Below, piece after piece: positions 510 to 16,171 of a stretch of 64,000 nt of DNA (positions within the stretch are counted from its first letter, which is position 1; each line of letters opens with the position of its first letter). The translations under genes were made by a program, and so were the position numbers. The stretch is from Syncephalis plumigaleata (Eukaryota; Zoopagomycota; Zoopagomycetes; Zoopagales; Piptocephalidaceae), in NCBI GenBank assembly GCA_025201365.1, contig JAIXMF010000008.1, forward strand, positions 558,001 to 622,000, written 5' to 3'. The notes under the pieces were generated by a model. It saw nothing but the letters and a program-made list of their open reading frames with translations. It was not told the DNA's origin and did not search any database.

Positions 510-2309
510 TCACTTACTTTCAGGTGTTATAGAAGCATTAGAATGAGTTGTTGTACTTTCCGGTAATGAACTGGTTACTACGCGTGTCTCACCCAGTGGT
601 AGTGTAATGAATGAATCGCCTAGCTTGTGATCCTCCACTGCTTTCCTTAGTCGTTCTGGTGGTTCCATATAATGCTATAATGTATTATGAATATGTGCAT
701 GTATGTGTATTAATAAAGTAGCATTGACTTACCTCATCTGACATTAAGAATGTGCCCCAATGTACACCAATTGATAGTTGTGCTCCAATATCTTTATGTA
801 TTTTAGCAGCATCATCTACATTGTTACATCGCAATAATTAACTATTGATATTCATGTCTCAAATAGTAACAACAATTACTTACCAGGATCAATGTGTTGA
901 TGCTCCATATACCATCGAGGTGCATAACTTCCAATTGGAATGGTAGCAAGTGTAACAGGTCCTAATCGTTTACCTATCTCTTTAAACGCTGTACAATAAC
1001 CTGTATCACCACTACATTATAGCTATAGTTAGATAGTGTCATTAGCATACATTCATTATTGAATCTCACCAGTGGAAGAATGATGAAGATGGTCCTTTAA
1101 CGACGAAACCACACCATAATGACTGATTGACATCGAATAAAGAGCGTCCACTCCAATGCTTATTTCGTAGATAATAAGAATTACACTAATTAGCATTCAT
1201 TGATTCATTGAACATGTAATTCAATACGTACCTGTAATGGTGTAGCAGTTACGGTAAATCCGGCATTACCCTGGAATGTATGTTCCTGCCACCAATCGAG
1301 TTCAATCACTTTGTAGACACCTCGACGTGCAAACCAATCACGTAGGCCAAGTGGCACCACCCATTGTACAGTATTGTTAAGTGCATACACTACATGTTCA
1401 TCCAAATGATCGAAATGATTATGCGATACGAGTACAATATCAACATGCAAGTCGGATAGTTGACACGGAGTAGGACGTAATCGACGTGGTCCCAAATAAT
1501 TATTCACTGTACATTGACTAGTATTCATTACAATTAGTAACATGCATCGTAGTTCATTGTATTATGACATTTACCTGAATATCGGATCTGTTAATATATT
1601 GACACCGTCCAATTGTACCAAACAAGTGGACTGACCCAGCCATGTTACAGTTACCGGATATTGATGCTGACAGCGTTGTCCCTCGGGATACAAAAGTTCA
1701 AAGTTAGGCGTGACTAATGGTAATGTCTTCTTCACTTCCTAAATACATGATAACATACTAATGTAAATATTCCTATTCATTTATTATCTACTTGTAACTT
1801 ACCTCTGTTGATTTCGGTCTATGTTGATTCGGACGACCGAACCACCATCGAAGTACATCCCATAGCGTGTGGTCATGCCAGCCAGGATATGGATTAACGA
1901 ACTGTCCATCCACTAATAGCGACCAGTGCTCAGGCGGTACTTGTCCCTCCTCCAACGCCGGTGCTTCTTCATAGCGACGACGTTCAAGCAAGTGACGACG
2001 TCGTTTATGGAACTGACGACGACGTCTAATAGTAAAGTAGGTAACCACGCCCATTACCACTGTGGTAGTGCCGATAACACCGATCCAAAAGCCGGAACGA
2101 CTACCTACACCACGTCTATGTAAGCCTCTTACGGACGTGGAGGCCACCGCTCCTAGAGTACTAGTAGTGGCAGTGGCAGTGGCACTCTTGGTTACTAGTG
2201 TAGGTGAGTCTACCATACGGTGAACCCACGTATGAACGCTATCCACAAGCGAGACGACGACAACGCCTAGTAGTCCATATCTACGCTGACCGTCGTCCTT
2301 TAGAGACAT
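510..2309 (-). CDS. NAPE-PLD-like metallo-beta-lactamase hydrolase
   Basis: Seven exons (2309-1803, 1738-1575, 1517-1232, 1158-1070, 1011-884, 815-733, 674-510) join into a 473-residue frame. The core is a zinc metallo-beta-lactamase fold of the N-acyl-phosphatidylethanolamine phospholipase D family, which releases N-acylethanolamines from membrane phospholipids. Visible hallmarks are [14 protein letters not shown], the HxHxDH motif as SHNHFDHLD, a TP(L)QHWSGR loop, FFHCGDTGYC, and IGVHWGTF near the C-terminus. A hydrophobic stretch around residues 77-95 followed by RRRR suggests one membrane anchor. The start is the first ATG; an upstream in-frame TTG was ignored. The exon 4 acceptor was chosen as AAATAAG just before HWSG, because a nearer AG sits too close to the branch point. 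Family assignment is firm; substrate is inferred from the family. Confidence 0.9.
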
Positions 2310-2778
2310 TACGTCTATAGGATTCAATAATGACGTATGCTATTGAAGGAAAAAAAGAAAAAAGGTAAGTGCAACGTATGCAAAACAAAGTGGCAGGAGA
2401 AAAATATTGCTAGAAGGACAAGCGTGAATTGAAATGACTGATGAGAAAAAAGGATTCTACTCAAATAGTATTTTAATCGGTGTAGTCATCCATGTCACTT
2501 TCAGTATGTATGACTCCTTAGTGATTACAGCGAATGAATGTAAGGGATATCTACACTCTATTGACATGCATATACGCATCCTATTCTTAGATGCATCAAT
2601 CAATTGACTAGTTAAGTGAGTGTATGTTTGTTTATTTACTAAGAAAAGTACACATGATGACATTCGTATAATTATTATGCATTACATGGAATGGTCCTCG
2701 TCGTTTATTCATATTCCATGTATACATATACATACACGTCATTAGTGTCAATACATGTCATGTAGAATTGTCTCAAGT

Positions 2779-3865
2779 CTATTCTACATTGTCGAAATCC
2801 TCAGGGATGTTAAAGTGTTTACGTAGTTCTCTTTGTTCAATATTGAATTTACGTGAACAATAAGCTTGTAGTGCAAATATGTTATCTACAACCAATACAT
2901 GCATATGTGTTAATAATGACTATCATTGCTGTAATAGATAGGAATTCATTATTTACCTGTCCATCGATTGGCTGCTTGTTTAGATATTTCAGCTGCTTTA
3001 CCTATTATTATAACAATTAAGAAATAAATATGTGTATTAGTCATTGATTGAATGGCAATATCAACTAGTATGGCAGTGTGTTACGTTTAGCTTCAATAGT
3101 ATCAGGATCATTGTCTTTGAATTGTTGCAATTCATCAGTGTACTCTTTGTTGCGTGCCTCTGCCTCTGCCAGTGCTGCAAGCAATTGCTCTCGATGATCC
3201 TACACATCATTATTCTATATAAATATATATATCAAAGTAGGTAATAGTGACACTTACCGAGGCAACTCGACGTTGATTAGCCTCCTCGATGGCAGCCTCC
3301 AACACAGCCTTCTTCTCTGTTAACTGGGCCTCTTCCTCTTGTAAACTGGCCAATTTCTGCTCTCTCTATCATTGCATCGTTTCATAATAATAATTATCGT
3401 TAATTGGTGACATGTACGCGTAAACATCGCCTACTTACTACACGATAACTCTCACTAGGGAATGACCAGTAGTAGTTGGACGTGCCAATCTTTTCGCAAT
3501 GCACTAATCCATCATTGACGAGTTCCTGTAGTACATCCTTTACGGATTGCGCCACTATAACAAGTGTGATTAGTAGATAGTATGCTATCAACGACAATCT
3601 ATTGCACTCTATCAATTACCGATGCCCTTTACTTTTGGCAGGATCTTTTCGAGTTCTTTTAGTTGAAATACATCACTCTACATCAATTAGACGATGGTCT
3701 ATATATATATATATATATCATATTCTATTATCATATACGCACTGTTTCGTGAAAGTAATCTTGCATTCGTTGCCTTTTCTCCTCGGCAGATACACCACGT
3801 TTCTTAGACTACTCGCAATAAGTAATACTGCTATATTAGCTGGTATAGTTATTGCCACCTACCAT
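2779..3865 (-). CDS. MND1: Meiotic nuclear division protein 1 (Mnd1)
   Basis: Eight exons (3865-3863, 3808-3743, 3677-3620, 3554-3439, 3365-3258, 3199-3085, 3001-2957, 2885-2779) give 205 residues, the usual Mnd1 length. Mnd1 pairs with Hop2 and helps Rad51/Dmc1 strand invasion in meiotic recombination. The N-terminus reads MSKKRGVSAEEKR, followed by a winged-helix region with VLQELVNDGLVHCEKIGTSN and YYWSFPS. A long coiled coil follows, then NRWTDNIFALQAYC and the conserved C-terminus HFNIPEDFDNVE. The first coding exon is only the ATG, followed directly by GTAGGT; the match to the family MSKK start supports this. A meiotic gene implies a sexual cycle or its remnant. Confidence 0.93.
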
Positions 3866-4167
3866 GATCGGTTTATTGTCAAGTTAATCTTGTAATGGGA
3901 CAAAGTAACGGGGAAGAGAAACGAGCGAGTAAATAATACGAGAAAGGCGTGTTGTTAAATGTAAAAATACGCGTGTATTTTCTCGTCTATTTTTTTTGCT
4001 AATCATGACAATCGATATGACTCATTAGTTTATGCCTACGTTCTGAGCAATAAAACATGAATAGAATTTATTGTAGAAATACTACTCGCAACACTCATGA
4101 ACAAACAACTAAGCAATCAGACATAGGAATGGCATCGAGAAAGAAAGAGGAAGAGAAAAGTATGCCA

Positions 4168-11481: not shown

Positions 11482-11621
11482 TATGGATGCAATAGATAAG
11501 GATAGCGCAAGACACAAAAACGAGCAGAAAGAAAGAAAAGAAAAATGCAGAGAAGAATTACAAGGTCAGACAAAATAAAATAAAAATAAGGATTTTTTTT
11601 ATAATGGTCAAAATATCACAC

Positions 11622-11779
11622 ATATTTATTCAATAAATGATTGATATTTATATAATAAGGCCATGAATTAATAGACGGAATGATCTTGTAGATATACTTG
11701 TACCAAGAAATAATGACTTGAATACCTATATATCTACTTGATGATGTTCTTGTCCTGTTCAGGCAGAAGCGACGGCATT
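11622..11779 (-). other. 3' UTR homologous to that of the micro-exon gene
   Basis: On the minus strand it reads ACATCATCAAGTAGATA, then GGTATTCAAGTCA, CTTGGTACAAGTATATC and CATTTATTGAATAAATATGT. All of these recur downstream of the gene at 13014 (14890-15050). It contains an AATAAA polyadenylation signal. The strong UTR conservation contrasts with the unrelated mature peptide regions. Confidence 0.75.
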
Positions 11780-11968
11780 CTAGGTATGGGACTCTTTGGG
11801 GGGAGGAGATTGCCTGGCGGTATCAGCAGCGGCGGGAGGTTTCTCTATAACTTCTGTAACTTCTTCTTGAGGAGTACGACGGGTTATTGCGGGCTTAGCT
11901 TCAACGGCGACCAGGCTGGTGAGAGCGACAACGGCGACGACAATAGCGAGAACGGCAGAGAACTTCAT
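11780..11968 (-). CDS. Small secreted peptide precursor (intronless paralogue)
   Basis: A 62-residue precursor. Residues 1-24 (MKFSAVLAIVVAVVALTSLV then AVEA) form a classic signal peptide ending at an A-x-A-type site. A pro-segment KPAITRR ends in a dibasic Kex2-type site. The predicted mature region starts TPQEEVTEVIEKPP and ends SPPPKESHT; it has no cysteine and no recognised domain. The DNA of the signal peptide is about 85-90% identical to that of the gene at 13014. The same TATA placement and a homologous 3' UTR also pair the two as recent duplicates in divergent orientation. The mature regions share only the first residues after RR (A/T-P). Confidence 0.85.
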   Translation of the reverse strand: MKFSAVLAIVVAVVALTSLVAVEAKPAITRRTPQEEVTEVIEKPPAAADTARQSPPPKESHT

Positions 11969-12101
11969 GTTGATATCGATTGGATAAGATGGAAAGGTGA
12001 GCTGACTAGAACGAGAGTAGAAAGTAGTGGAGGAGGAGAGTAAAGAGAGTAGAATAAAGTAGAAGAGCAGGTATGGAGATGGTGAGTGTGTCAACAGCAC
12101 C

Positions 12102-12110
12102 ATATATATA
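12102..12110 (-). promoter_or_regulatory. TATA box of the intronless peptide gene
   Basis: The minus strand reads GGCTATATATATGG about 140 bases upstream of the ATG at 11968. The paralogue on the plus strand has GGCTATAAATC at nearly the same distance (136 bases). Conserved sequence and spacing support a core promoter. Confidence 0.65.
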
Positions 12111-12235
12111 GCCATGATGATGGTGGTAGTGGATGTTTCTAATGAACAGGATAAAGCATTTTAAAGGAATCTGATTGGTGGAAAATTCGAGAGAAACTCG
12201 ACGAGGTTCCGAACGTACTATTTTATGATAGCTAT

Positions 12236-12307
12236 AGCAACGTAGCGCAGTGGAAGCGTATTGGGCTCATAACCCAAGGGTCGGTGGATCGAAACCACCC
12301 GTTGCTA
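12236..12307 (+). tRNA. Initiator tRNA-Met (CAU)
   Basis: A 72-nt cloverleaf. The 7-bp acceptor stem AGCAACG pairs with CGTTGCT, followed by discriminator A. The D arm is GCGCAGTGGAAGCG. The anticodon arm GGGCTCATAACCC has three G-C pairs and a CAT anticodon, which is typical of eukaryotic initiator tRNA. The T arm is GGTGGATCGAAACCACC with the initiator-type AUCGA in place of TTCGA. No intron. It lies between the two divergent secreted-peptide genes. Confidence 0.95.
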
Positions 12308-12877
12308 TTATTATTTAAGCTGCTACTTCATCTACTTAGTGATGATATATCACTTTATTATGATAATACAAAGTAGGGGAGTATTTTTCATTTTTATTTT
12401 TTACACTATAGTGTGGTTTCCTAATTAGGAAATGCTACACGTTGATTAGTGGTCAACAATGCAGCCATTGCTAGTAGAAGGCATTTGGTAGTTAGCGAAC
12501 AATGACGTGAACAAAACAAAAGTTTCTTGTTTGATTGATATAGAGAAGAACGGCTAGCTCGGCTACGTATACACTGTTTGCTATATTAGCCTTTGTCGTA
12601 TGAATACTGAATGGCCTTTGCAGGACACATCTCAATGGCATGAATCATACATTGCATAAAACAATAAACACATACTATTACTAGTGGCTGCAATAATGGA
12701 GTATTTTGAAATACCGATATAATGTAGGTTCGGATAATTGACAGATCATGCGGTTACACGACATGGCAAACATTCACCACTCATCTAATTGGTACTATCT
12801 GCTCGCTATACTACCTGCAAACAATGGATTGACGATTCAGCCATATTAATATCCGCCATCATCATCATCATCTTGGC
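12308..12877. other. Intergenic between tRNA and peptide-gene promoter
   Basis: AT-rich and without a supported gene. It carries the upstream control region of the plus-strand peptide gene, including an ATCATC repeat just before the TATA box. Confidence 0.4.
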
Positions 12878-12883
12878 TATAAA
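12878..12883 (+). promoter_or_regulatory. TATA box of the micro-exon peptide gene
   Basis: TATAAA within TTGGCTATAAATCATGC, 136 bases upstream of the ATG at 13014. It is followed by a pyrimidine-rich leader (CTCGCTCTTTTACTCTACC). It mirrors the TATA box of the divergent paralogue and suggests strong, regulated transcription. Confidence 0.7.
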
Positions 12884-13013
12884 TCATGCACATTTTGACA
12901 CACTCGACTTATCATCTTCATACTCGCTCTTTTACTCTACCCTACTCTAGCTGCTATCTACTCTCGTTCTAGTCTGTTTATCTGTTTATCCATTCCACTA
13001 GGCCAACATCAAC

Positions 13014-14832
13014 ATGAAGTACTCTGTCATTATCGCTATTGCCGTCGCCGTTGTCGCTCTCACCAGTCTGGTCGCCGTTGAAGCTAGTCCCGCCTTGGAT
13101 CGTCGTGGTATGTCTGGCCGTGACCCTATCAATTGATGTACTAACCGTAGCCTATTGTTTCATTGTCTACCGATGACTACCGATAGCTCGTAAGTTCATG
13201 TATATTAATGGTTGTTTTGCCATGCTAATCACATTTCAATGTTTATTCCATCTGTTACTTTGTTAATAATAGCTGGTAAGTTAGTTTATTGACCGTAACA
13301 AGTACTAGGCTAATTGTAGTGCAAATCAAAATTATATATAACTACCATTTTCAAGTACCTGTAAGTTATCGTAGTGGCTACAAGCTATCTGTACTAATTA
13401 TGATATTATACATGATCCACCTATTTGTATACAATAGGTCGTAAGCTACCATTTTGATCATATGAATCCCGTGCTAACAAAATTACAACACTCATTCATA
13501 TGTTCCTGTCTGATAGGGAGTAAGTTATCATTCTGACAGTATCGTATAATTGCTAATCACCCTATGACACCTGATCCACGTATGTTCTTGTATGATAGAT
13601 TGTAAGTTGATATTTTATTATACAGTATGGCCGCTGCTTACCATATGACCCATGATTCACATATGTTCCTGTACCATAGCCTGTAAGCTATCACTATGAT
13701 TGTGATGCATGGTGTACTAATTACAAGATGTCACACAATTTATATATTATCGTATTATAGGGCGTAAGTAACCATTTTGATCGTGATGTAGGAGGTATTA
13801 ACTACGGTATGATACCAATCCACGTATGTTTATGATAGGGTGTAAGTTCTCGTTATGATTGTAACAAGTGATGTATTAATTATAACGTGACACACGATCC
13901 ACGTATATTTCTGTGTACCAGTTTGTAAGTTATCATTCTGTCTACAATGTATGGCTGGGCTAACTATAGTATGACACATGATTCCGTATGCTCTCGTATA
14001 ATAGCGGGTGAGTTATCATTTTGACTTCCATGAATGGTTACTAATTACAATGTGGTTCATGATCCGTGTATTCGTTTGTATACGATAGGCCGTAAGTCAT
14101 CATTATGGTTGTAATACATGAATGAGTATTAATCACGCTATGGCACACGATTTTTGTATGTTCCTGTATGATAGCAAGTAAGTCATTATTCTGATCGTAT
14201 TTACGGCGTACTAACTATAATCTGGCCTATGCTCAATACATGTTTACATATGATAGGACGTAAGTTTCCATTTTATTTATAATTTACGAGTGTACTAACT
14301 ACGATATGACACATGGTCGATATGTTTTGCATAACAGATTGTAAGTTATCATTCTGATCATAATGCATGGGTGTACTAATTGTAACATGATATCACTTCA
14401 TGTGTTCCTGTATTGCAGAAAGTAGGCTAGCATTTCGATGATAATGAGTAACGTACTAATTGCAAAACGGCACATAATCCATACGTTCGTATATAACAGC
14501 ATGTAAGTGAGCATAATAATTACACACTATGATTACTAATTATACCATGATGCATGATTCACGTATGACCTTCTATGGTAGCCTGTAAGTTGATACGATT
14601 GCTGTAATGAACGGTGTACTGACTAAAATGTGACACACGATCAATATGGATATTCCTCACGATAGGATGTAAGTTAATATTTCTGATCGTAACGCGTGGA
14701 TGTACTAATCACGCTATGGCACACAATCCGTATGTAATTTTGCATAATAGCTTGTAAGTTACCATTCCAATCTTCATTTACGACGTGCTAACCACAGTAC
14801 AATTAATATTAATTGAATAGCCACCACAATAA
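13014..14832 (+). CDS. Secreted peptide precursor with one-codon micro-exons
   Basis: Exon 1 (13014-13107, phase 1) encodes a signal peptide MKYSVIIAIAVAVVALTS-LVAVEA and pro-segment SPALDRR. The remaining coding bases lie in micro-exons at 13187-13189, 13273-13275, 13356-13360 (5 nt), then seventeen 3-nt exons at 13438, 13517, 13599, 13680, 13761, 13839, 13922, 14005, 14089, 14175, 14257, 14338, 14419, 14500, 14582, 14666 and 14751 (start positions), and a last exon 14821-14832 ending TAA. Phase 1 of exon 1 plus 3+3+5 nt brings the seventeen 3-nt exons exactly into codon phase. The result is 55 residues with no internal stop. After the RR site the peptide begins APVPVGIPGG and ends DIKHPDLPPQ. 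The assembled first codons GCT CCT match ACT CCT at the same place in the intronless paralogue. Function is unknown; a secreted signalling or effector peptide is likely. Exon calls rest on splice signals, not transcripts. Confidence 0.75.
13108..14820 (+). repeat. Tandem array of 21 homologous introns, about 82-bp period
   Basis: Donor sites recur at 13108, 13190, 13276, 13361, 13441, 13520, 13602, 13683, 13764, 13842, 13925, 14008, 14092, 14178, 14260, 14341, 14422, 14503, 14585, 14669 and 14754, a spacing of 78-86 bases. Each unit has a donor (mostly GTAAGTT), ATCATT-T-GAT, a branch point such as GTACTAAT or GTGCTAAC, a segment like ACACATGATCCACGTATG, and an acceptor TGATAG. Three bases then precede the next donor. 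Units resemble one another throughout, so they arose by copying. The three bases between acceptor and donor are the most variable part. The acceptor before 13356 is weaker (TTTTCAAG). One further intron (14836-14887) follows the stop. Confidence 0.88.
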
Positions 14833-15060
14833 GCAGTAAGTAATAATTTACAATAACCATACCCATACTAATTCATTATGATTACAGGACAAGACGAGGA
14901 CATCATCAAGTAGATAGTATAGGTATTCAAGTCAAGAATGGATTGGTGCAAGACCCTTTAGTGTCCATACCACTCAAGTCATTATTCCTTGGTACAACAA
15001 CAAGTATATCTACAAGATCATCATTCAATCATTTATTGAATAAATATGTATATATTCCAA
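14833..15060 (+). other. 3' UTR of micro-exon peptide gene, with a UTR intron
   Basis: After the TAA, GTAAGT at 14836, branch TACTAAT and ATTACAG at 14887 define a last intron. The following sequence is homologous to the 3' UTR of the paralogue and ends with AATAAA at 15039-15044. A phase-1 reading of 14888-14913 would give QDEDIIK and a stop, which a direct exon 1-to-last-exon splice could use. Confidence 0.6.
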
Positions 15061-15266
15061 TTATGCTACAGAATACCTATGAGCTATTACGATGTAATGT
15101 CAATAGCATAGTCTTATTTCACTAATGTGCTTTTATTATAATAATAAAGTTCAATGCATAATATATATATTACGCTAATCAGATCATTCAATCTAGCAAG
15201 CATGACTAGCATCACCAATGATCGCACTTCTTCCGGTACTGTTAGTAAATAAACAAAACAACGTAG
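15061..15266. other. Short convergent intergenic region
   Basis: AT-rich sequence between the 3' ends of the peptide gene and the heme lyase gene. It contains candidate polyadenylation signals (AATAAA near 15141). No gene seen. Confidence 0.4.
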
Positions 15267-16171
15267 CTAATCGCTTGTCAACTGCCGAAATAGAAATCGT
15301 GCTCGATCTATAAGACCAGTGAATGTGGGTGCCGGTCGTACATCCAAGTAGAACGACGCTACTGCCTCTGGCCTCTTTGGATCATGTTGACCTGCGTAGA
15401 AGTCAATAATATAGGTTACTTCCTCGCCGCATCGATCTACTACCCAATCATGTCGATCAAATGGCAATTTATACCTGGTAGTATAGTAATGATGGACAAG
15501 TACGCAGAATGTTATTATTAACAATAAGCATTCCACTCGTATTTTCTACTACTTACCCGAGCCAACTACGTAATCGAGCCTTTAGCGAAATATCCTGAGG
15601 CCGTCCCTGGAAACGTACCAGTGCTGGTCGACCACAATCACTACGCGTATTCTACGCGTGAATTCCTATGATTGCTATCCATTCAATCCGCTTACCTTTC
15701 ATGCATATGCTCCCATTTTAGAATCTCCTTCCAGGCACGTTCGTTGACTGCATTATGAATTGGCACTACCGTTTGCATATCCTCCTCGTTTGGATTCCAG
15801 TTTTTACGACGAAGTGCATTAAAGAACATTTGCTGCGATGGATACACCCACACGCCATGCTTGTTGTCGCCAGTTGCCGCGGGACATGCATTCTCGCCAC
15901 TATTACTTGCACCATCCGACGCGTGAGTGGGTGCTGCCATCGGGATGGTGGATAATTCGCGTTGCGTATCAAGTGACATACGCTGATTGTCCGCACGTTC
16001 TTGATTAGGTGCCGGCATGTAATTGGCCGGATTAAGTGATTCCTTATCCTGTCCCTCTGCTACTCCGTCTGTCTTGCTATTTGGCAAGAAATGAGCGTAG
16101 GCCGCGTGATCTACGGGACATTTGGAAGTAGATGTCTGCCCTTCAACGGGGTTATCCTGCTGTTTAGACAT
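15267..16171 (-). CDS. Holocytochrome c synthase (cytochrome c heme lyase)
   Basis: Three exons (16171-15696, 15640-15557, 15474-15267) give 255 residues. The enzyme attaches heme covalently to apocytochrome c in the mitochondrial intermembrane space. The N-terminal heme regulatory motif is present as SKCPVDH. The core reads HGVWVYPSQQMFFNALRRKN then WNPNEEDMQTVVPIHNAVNE, followed by CGRPALVRFQGRPQDIS and PFDRHDWVVDRCGEEVTYII with the catalytic His in the expected place. Length and motif order match the family. It could serve cytochrome c or c1 (Cyc3/Cyt2 types); the sequence alone does not separate them here. Its start is only about 130 bases from the divergent Ssf1 gene, so they share a promoter. 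Confidence 0.95.

Follow-up and report, generated by a model that had tools for sequence, protein, structure and literature searches.

Predicted one-codon exons in a family of putative secreted-peptide genes of Syncephalis plumigaleata

Introduction

The closest described counterparts of the gene reported here are the micro-exon genes of schistosomes, which, in the published accounts as far as they were available, encode secreted proteins, carry most of their coding sequence in very small and mostly frame-neutral exons and are a struggle for automatic annotation (PMC10526429, PMC4350168), traits that recur in the gene as we predict it. The available text of one of these accounts puts their exons at 6-81 bp, with 15 bp typical (3-81 in its abstract), and their introns at 100 to almost 5,000 bp (PMC10526429). 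Other systems show a partial likeness. Aphid bicycle genes have internal exons that are almost all in phase 2. Introners are known for many similar introns per genome, with target-site duplications of 3-9 bp in some families, according to the portion of their description at hand (PMC9860276). At the level of single exons, plant APC11 and VPS55 indicate that even 1-nt exons can be spliced (PMC8831610), and Drosophila homothorax has a 3-bp exon (PMC7392893).

Here we describe a gene in a 64,000-nt stretch of DNA (the window) from Syncephalis plumigaleata, a parasite of other fungi that belongs to the Zoopagales; the window lies in a contig of 975,987 bases (C362). A TatD protein encoded in the window has 74% identity to the one from S. 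pseudoplumigaleata and 83% to a metagenome protein. With a probability of roughly 0.92, judged from sequence, it is a protein-coding member of a large S. plumigaleata family of secreted-peptide precursors, in which the mature part is encoded mostly in one-codon exons joined by ordinary splicing. Compared with schistosome micro-exon genes, it belongs to another kingdom and no sequence was seen to be common to both; one codon is here the usual exon size, and the introns are uniform, about 80 nt long and similar to each other. Whereas phase 2 internal exons characterise bicycle genes, the window gene runs in phase 0 past its leader, one codon at a time. It is like introners in its many similar introns, but the exact one-codon spacing present here is absent from the portion of their description at hand (PMC9860276). 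The ultra-short exons of APC11, VPS55 and homothorax, as presented in the available text, are single exons, unlike the runs of seventeen or more found here. We class the architecture with that of micro-exon genes in general, found here in a lineage unrelated to theirs and taken to the extreme of one codon per exon; searches of open-licence papers brought up no earlier account of genes built in this way, nor of any micro-exons in Syncephalis.

Results

Exon chain of the window gene

Donor, branch-point and acceptor weight matrices were trained on 153 introns from 12 other loci, all on contig C1, with the window excluded; the training introns themselves came from between 3-nt exons, and the model scores introns only. 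The chain finder that uses these matrices is blind to reading frame and weights exon lengths of 1-60 nt equally. Started from the exon 1 donor, it returned internal exons of 3, 3 and 5 nt, seventeen of 3 nt and one of 15 nt (Table 1), with 22 introns and a score of 639 bits, thereby arriving at the same chain, up to the stop codon, that an earlier note on this DNA had read from the sequence alone. The same model never exceeded 13 bits and one intron in 100 Markov shuffles, nor 28 bits and two introns in 165 random 2-kb pieces of the window. A looser finder, which accepts weak introns and exons of up to 400 nt, reached at most 39 bits on 31 other 4-kb tiles of the window, with one 3-nt exon in total. 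Its scores alone are unspecific on reversed loci, because 40 reversed sequences of 20 loci produced chains that reached 185 bits and 27 introns; these again held one 3-nt exon in total. A chance motif as the source of the exon chain is ruled out by these controls together with the genome-wide pattern counts given below.

Table 1. Predicted features of the window gene and its neighbouring paralogue (window coordinates).
Feature	Position	Strand	Description
Exon 1	13014..13107	+	94 nt = 31 codons + 1 nt; predicted signal peptide, short pro-segment, end Arg-Arg
Intron 1	13108..13186	+	79 nt; GTATGT donor, TACTAAC, TAG
Exon 2	13187..13189	+	CTC, phase 1; blind splice chain
Exon 3	13273..13275	+	CTG, phase 1; blind splice chain
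Exon 4	13356..13360	+	TACCT, 5 nt; brings phase back to 0
Exons 5-21 (seventeen one-codon exons)	13438..14753	+	blind splice chain; separating introns 75-83 nt
One-codon exons 5-12	GTC 13438, GGA 13517, ATT 13599, CCT 13680, GGC 13761, GGT 13839, TTT 13922, CGG 14005		
One-codon exons 13-21	GCC 14089, CAA 14175, GAC 14257, ATT 14338, AAA 14419, CAT 14500, CCT 14582, GAT 14666, CTT 14751		
Exon 22	14821..14835	+	CCACCACAA TAA GCA = final three codons, stop, 3 nt of 3' UTR
Intron 22	14836..14887	+	52 nt, inside 3' UTR
3' UTR exon	14888..15060 (approximate end)	+	sequence common to family members with and without introns
Uninterrupted paralogue	11780..11968	-	62-codon frame; same signal peptide and 3' UTR; head-to-head with window gene

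The joined frame is open for 55 codons, the length proposed earlier, and stops in exon 22 of 23; the predicted secreted peptide is APVPVGIPGGFRAQDIKHPDLPPQ. The last coding exon had been given as 12 nt with the stop, which is right as far as the TAA, the exon continuing for 3 nt of UTR. Introns number 22 rather than the 21 first counted, because a 52-nt intron follows the stop codon; its acceptor was set at 14887 from uninterrupted relatives, the chain finder itself having taken a later one. Donors are GTATGT in intron 1, GTGAGT in intron 12, GTAGGC in intron 17 and GTAAGT or GTAAGC in the other 19. The description of all branch points as TACTAAC-like was slightly too sweeping: CTRAY is present in 18 of the 22 introns, TATTAAY takes its place in introns 9, 10 and 13, and the best that intron 7 offers is TGCTTAC. 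Over the whole window, the pattern AG-NNN-GTRRG has 38 matches on the + strand, of which 19 are units of the window gene in one 1.6-kb run and 19 are scattered elsewhere. A tRNA-Met gene (12235-12308) lies between the window gene and its head-to-head paralogue; at gathering threshold, the search for RNA families in the window returned nothing beyond one tRNA.

Precursor and products

The N-terminal part of exon 1 is hydrophobic and common to its matches, and was called a signal peptide by eye. Genome-wide, exon 1 has 150 scored matches from 172 candidates (E up to 10 allowed; weakest listed E 0.019), and these commonly stop at residue 32. A GTATGK donor stands exactly at base 94 in 17 of 24 distinct copies, and in 67 of 149 match rows the open frame extends to 44 codons, as read-through into intron 1 would give. 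Exon 1 closes with RR in 22 of 23 listed copies (RH in L039), which places a dibasic site between pro-segment and mature peptide as in Kex2 precursors, so a Kex2-type protease would release the mature peptide; from these residues we infer Kex2 cleavage of the precursor. Since the signal-peptide exon ends at RR, it is the mature peptide that the one-codon exons would encode, and the earlier choice of that term was apt. In the family members L046 and L050, AVVE is followed by a second RR.

A micro-exon run at another locus (L049; C1:2470000-2479000, minus strand) is preceded by a long exon, which codes for a signal peptide and for four near-repeats that all close with RR: three copies of DHVPPAAFRSLERR and one variant, Kex2-like. 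By this arrangement it is a predicted repeat-type Kex2 precursor.

The long products predicted from contig C79 (L064 and L069), contig C68 (L070 and L066) and L044 have a common C..CC..C framework and little else alike; its spacing is C-x(12-15)-CC-x(8-12)-C if the 2-nt exon of L044 is counted as one residue. No uninterrupted copy of a cysteine-rich product was found, by a type of search whose empty answer proves nothing. Four spliced products had no Pfam match above cut-off, and hits to Wzz (E 0.17) and Brix (E 0.066) were disregarded. The 6 and 37 matches from protein searches were all S. plumigaleata or jgi/ena metagenome proteins, with no schistosome protein among them, although such word-based searches can miss distant relatives. 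Related signal peptides occur in metagenome proteins, two of which (P0139 and P0141) end in GTSGHGHI(G/N); they look like read-through of a matching intron 1, which suggests that the exon-1 architecture may exist in other Syncephalis.

A genome-wide family

The earlier note had treated the locus as a single unusual gene. Its gene model is supported by reading frame, stop avoidance, conservation and uninterrupted paralogues, but the gene is one member of a large family spread over the genome. Across the 32.6-Mb genome, three consecutive 3-nt exons (exact GTAAG donors, spacers of 60-90 nt) occur 1,999 times (902 + 1,097), against 10 times for the reversed pattern. With the middle exon changed to 4 nt there are 0 matches, and with 6 nt there are 37. 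The middle codon is never TAA or TAG (10 in the reversed control) and twice TGA, compared with 134 cases of GAA or GAG. Within modelled chains, 200 pattern matches correspond to 371 three-nt exons, and the genome total would thus be about 3,700 3-nt exons, a rough figure in which duplicate contigs are counted.

These counts bear on whether the array could be a noncoding tandem repeat with an 80-bp unit containing AG-NNN-GTAAG, such that splicing joins exon 1 directly to the 3' UTR exon and removes the array as a single intron. The units are indeed alike, with a mean intron identity of 0.66 at lag 1 within a gene and 0.62 between genes, against 0.51 for shuffled sequence. Such a repeat is nevertheless at odds with the genome-wide lack of TAA and TAG in the middle triplet, with a spacing of 3 nt but never 4, with a terminal stop that falls in frame and with a spliced array that matches an unbroken ORF as a protein (see below), and we consider it exceedingly improbable. 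A simple satellite is ruled out by the stop and frame statistics.

From 22 sources, chain modelling produced 21 chains that scored 100 bits or more (none from L047), and the near copy of the window, L068, was left out of the counts, leaving 20. In these, 3-nt exons make up 352 of 426 internal exons, and most of the coding sequence lies in very small symmetrical exons, as in micro-exon genes. Among the 352 there is one stop codon (TGA, in L067), where 7 would be expected under independent base positions. Sixteen chains, L068 among them, start at the 94-nt exon 1; their last coding exon closes with TAAGCA, TAAGCG or TAAACA in 16 of 16 cases, and the terminal TAA is in frame in 14, though the finder never used frame. 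A 2-nt exon breaks the frame of L044 and L067, the latter also having the TGA exon, and both may be decayed copies. Our script scores 12 of the 16 chains as in frame and open; L071 fails this count because two TAA stand in tandem, and L050 because one 87-nt block stayed unsplit. Leaders differ in length between in-frame family members and make the total a multiple of 3. The leader 3-nt exons of L046 and L050 are in phase 1, so each holds parts of two codons; these two loci also have a leader intron with a GC donor (CTG|GCAAGT).

In 168 introns flanked on both sides by 3-nt exons, lengths are usually 78-82 nt, and TACTAAY stands most often 42 nt before the acceptor. The stretch from branch point to acceptor is free of AG in 265 of 358 introns (68 expected from composition), and the stretch upstream of the branch point in 194 (97 expected).

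Uninterrupted relatives and deposited models

The signal peptide and 3' UTR recur in several paralogues without the introns, and these serve as natural cDNAs that show the junction logic. Where exon 1 would be joined through a 3-nt exon to the exon after it, L063 reads CGTCGTGCTCCACAA and L055 reads CGTCGTGCTTCTCAA, as joining predicts, and the 3' end of L055, TAAGCA-AACAAGACAAGAACAT, is the sequence expected after removal of the last intron from genes like L042. For the mature part of the window gene, no matching uninterrupted sequence was found past residue 43 of 55. The spliced leader AVVERRAP of L046 and L050 is present unbroken in another ORF, on contig C130.

The strongest such case came from L041, on contig C1, in which the exons of at most 30 nt (67 of 70) were joined, its 5' end not being settled. 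One frame of the spliced product stays open for 88 residues, until a predicted 1-nt exon brings a stop. This frame can be aligned with residues 20-102 of protein P0133, 36 of 85 positions being identical (42%; 5 gap columns; E 9e-16 as a single comparison), and the matched part of P0133 is encoded without interruption at two places, C318:1455923-1456228 and C220:4122-4427. The score is 142, or 136 once two blocks had been split by eye; after the split, 3-nt exons supply 44 of the aligned residues, and 24 of these are identical. Against 136, the maximum was 64 in 1,000 shuffles of exon order and 29 for the unspliced DNA. Given this residue-by-residue agreement with an unbroken ORF, the codons of L041 are either older than the introns or have survived intron loss.

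Deposited models of the family, where examined, are mostly partial or run into introns. P0122 contains QEWNEF, the product of six successive 3-nt exons, and EWNEF is contiguous in no forward frame of its locus (5.4 kb examined); after QEWNEF, the model continues into an intron, and by our reading it also omits some of the 3-nt exons. P0123 shows read-through into an intron of the intron 1 type. BDF22DRAFT_698013, as we read it, drops the chain codons TGC and GAC and keeps their neighbours.

This last model might reflect the use of codons as cassette exons, by which each gene would give a pool of peptides and each skip would drop one in-frame residue. Almost all units past the leader are frame-neutral, and schistosome micro-exon genes use alternative splicing in this manner, according to the text available (PMC4350168). 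On the other hand, the splice sites are mostly strong, and the order of cysteines and the match in length between L041 and its protein relative suggest full inclusion as the conserved product. Cassette use is rather doubtful on balance, and it adds to the best explanation, one-codon exons joined by ordinary splicing, and does not replace it.

Conservation and codon choice

A second copy of the region, L068 (C179:64461-68900, 4,440 bases), is 95.6% identical to window positions 11569-15994 and is either a segmental duplicate or a second haplotype; a close copy of the paralogue at 11780-11968 adjoins the gene there as well. Between the two copies, the introns differ at 102 of 1,736 bases (5.9%) plus 20 gapped columns, a comparison in which the last intron ran to the later acceptor and about 44 UTR bases are included. 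Exons 2-22 differ at 0 of 77 bases, which has a probability of 0.009 at the intron rate, and exon 1 differs at 4 of 94. In their choice among synonymous codons, the 3-nt exons track five uninterrupted family members, exon 1 of these included (r 0.60); compared with nine ordinary ORFs from the window, they show no agreement (RSCU r 0.02).

An acceptor, a 3-nt exon and a donor in a row look like a recursive splice point, and adjacent introns would be hard to recognise simultaneously; the 3-nt pieces could hence be ratchet points in the recursive or nested splicing of one long intron, usually absent from the mRNA. Exons that are discarded, however, have no need of stop avoidance, of an exact size of 3 nt or of conserved codons, and we hold this to be very improbable.

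Discussion

In the reading that we prefer, protein-coding with one-codon exons, exon 1 would provide the signal peptide, the pro-segment and an Arg-Arg (Kex2-type) site, and U2-type splicing of uniform introns of about 80 nt would join the one-codon exons into the mature peptide. Each intron would be recognised by a strong GTAAGT donor, a TACTAAY about 42 nt before the acceptor and an AG-poor tract between the two. The introns would then hold all the information that the spliceosome needs, leaving the codon between two of them free, barring stops; signals of this strength, in introns so short and uniform, favour recognition by intron definition. With three bases between acceptor and donor there is hardly room for U2AF at the one and U1 at the other together, and neighbours would therefore probably take turns. 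The earlier note had concluded that the introns must go in order, which goes too far: flanking a 3-nt exon would make two neighbours mutually exclusive and imposes no strict 5'-to-3' order, and neighbouring introns are probably excised at different times without one. We infer, from the features set out above, that the transcript is spliced as in the predicted chain.

How the arrays arose is a separate matter, on which the data are divided. Our picture is of one intron family that has presumably spread inside coding sequence at three-base spacing, by insertion, by duplication of units, or by both. Intron identity is 0.62 between genes against 0.51 when shuffled, and 19 within-gene pairs are at least 90% identical. 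The arrays may lengthen when a codon and its intron are duplicated in tandem as one unit, and not through separate insertions, which as an account of origin only is quite possible, if short of an even chance. Adjacent codons are identical in 26 of 299 cases, against 15.3 in within-gene permutations (P 0.001), an excess that fits duplicated targets and duplicated units alike. Furthermore, 13 of the 19 highly similar pairs (68%) have a common preceding or following codon, compared with about 7% of intron pairs less than 70% identical, and L045 has period-two repeats. However, only 9 of the 19 have the following codon in common and some have neither flank in common, identity at lags 2 and 3 does not significantly exceed expectation (P 0.22 and 0.29), and L041 aligns residue by residue with an unbroken ORF. 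It is unlikely, in our judgement, that the introns are mobile elements which duplicate three bases on insertion beside their own copies, each adding one in-frame, removable codon. Insertion with three-base duplication and duplication of codon plus intron each fit parts of the data on origin.

Syncephalis are mycoparasites (PMC10386755, in the text available, and general knowledge), and from this lifestyle and the predicted secretion we would guess that the peptides act where parasite and host fungus meet. Genes with one-codon exons would, we expect, largely escape standard gene finders and short-read aligners.

Our results push exon size and exon density to the level of the codon in roughly 2,000-4,000 exons of a single genome, a rough range that counts duplicate contigs. 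They offer a natural system in which to ask how the spliceosome copes with dozens of mutually exclusive adjoining sites and whether intron definition suffices, and raise the question of what a parasite gains from fragmenting the genes of its secreted peptides. If the mobile-intron reading is true, the length and content of these peptides would evolve, and perhaps vary by splicing, one amino acid at a time.
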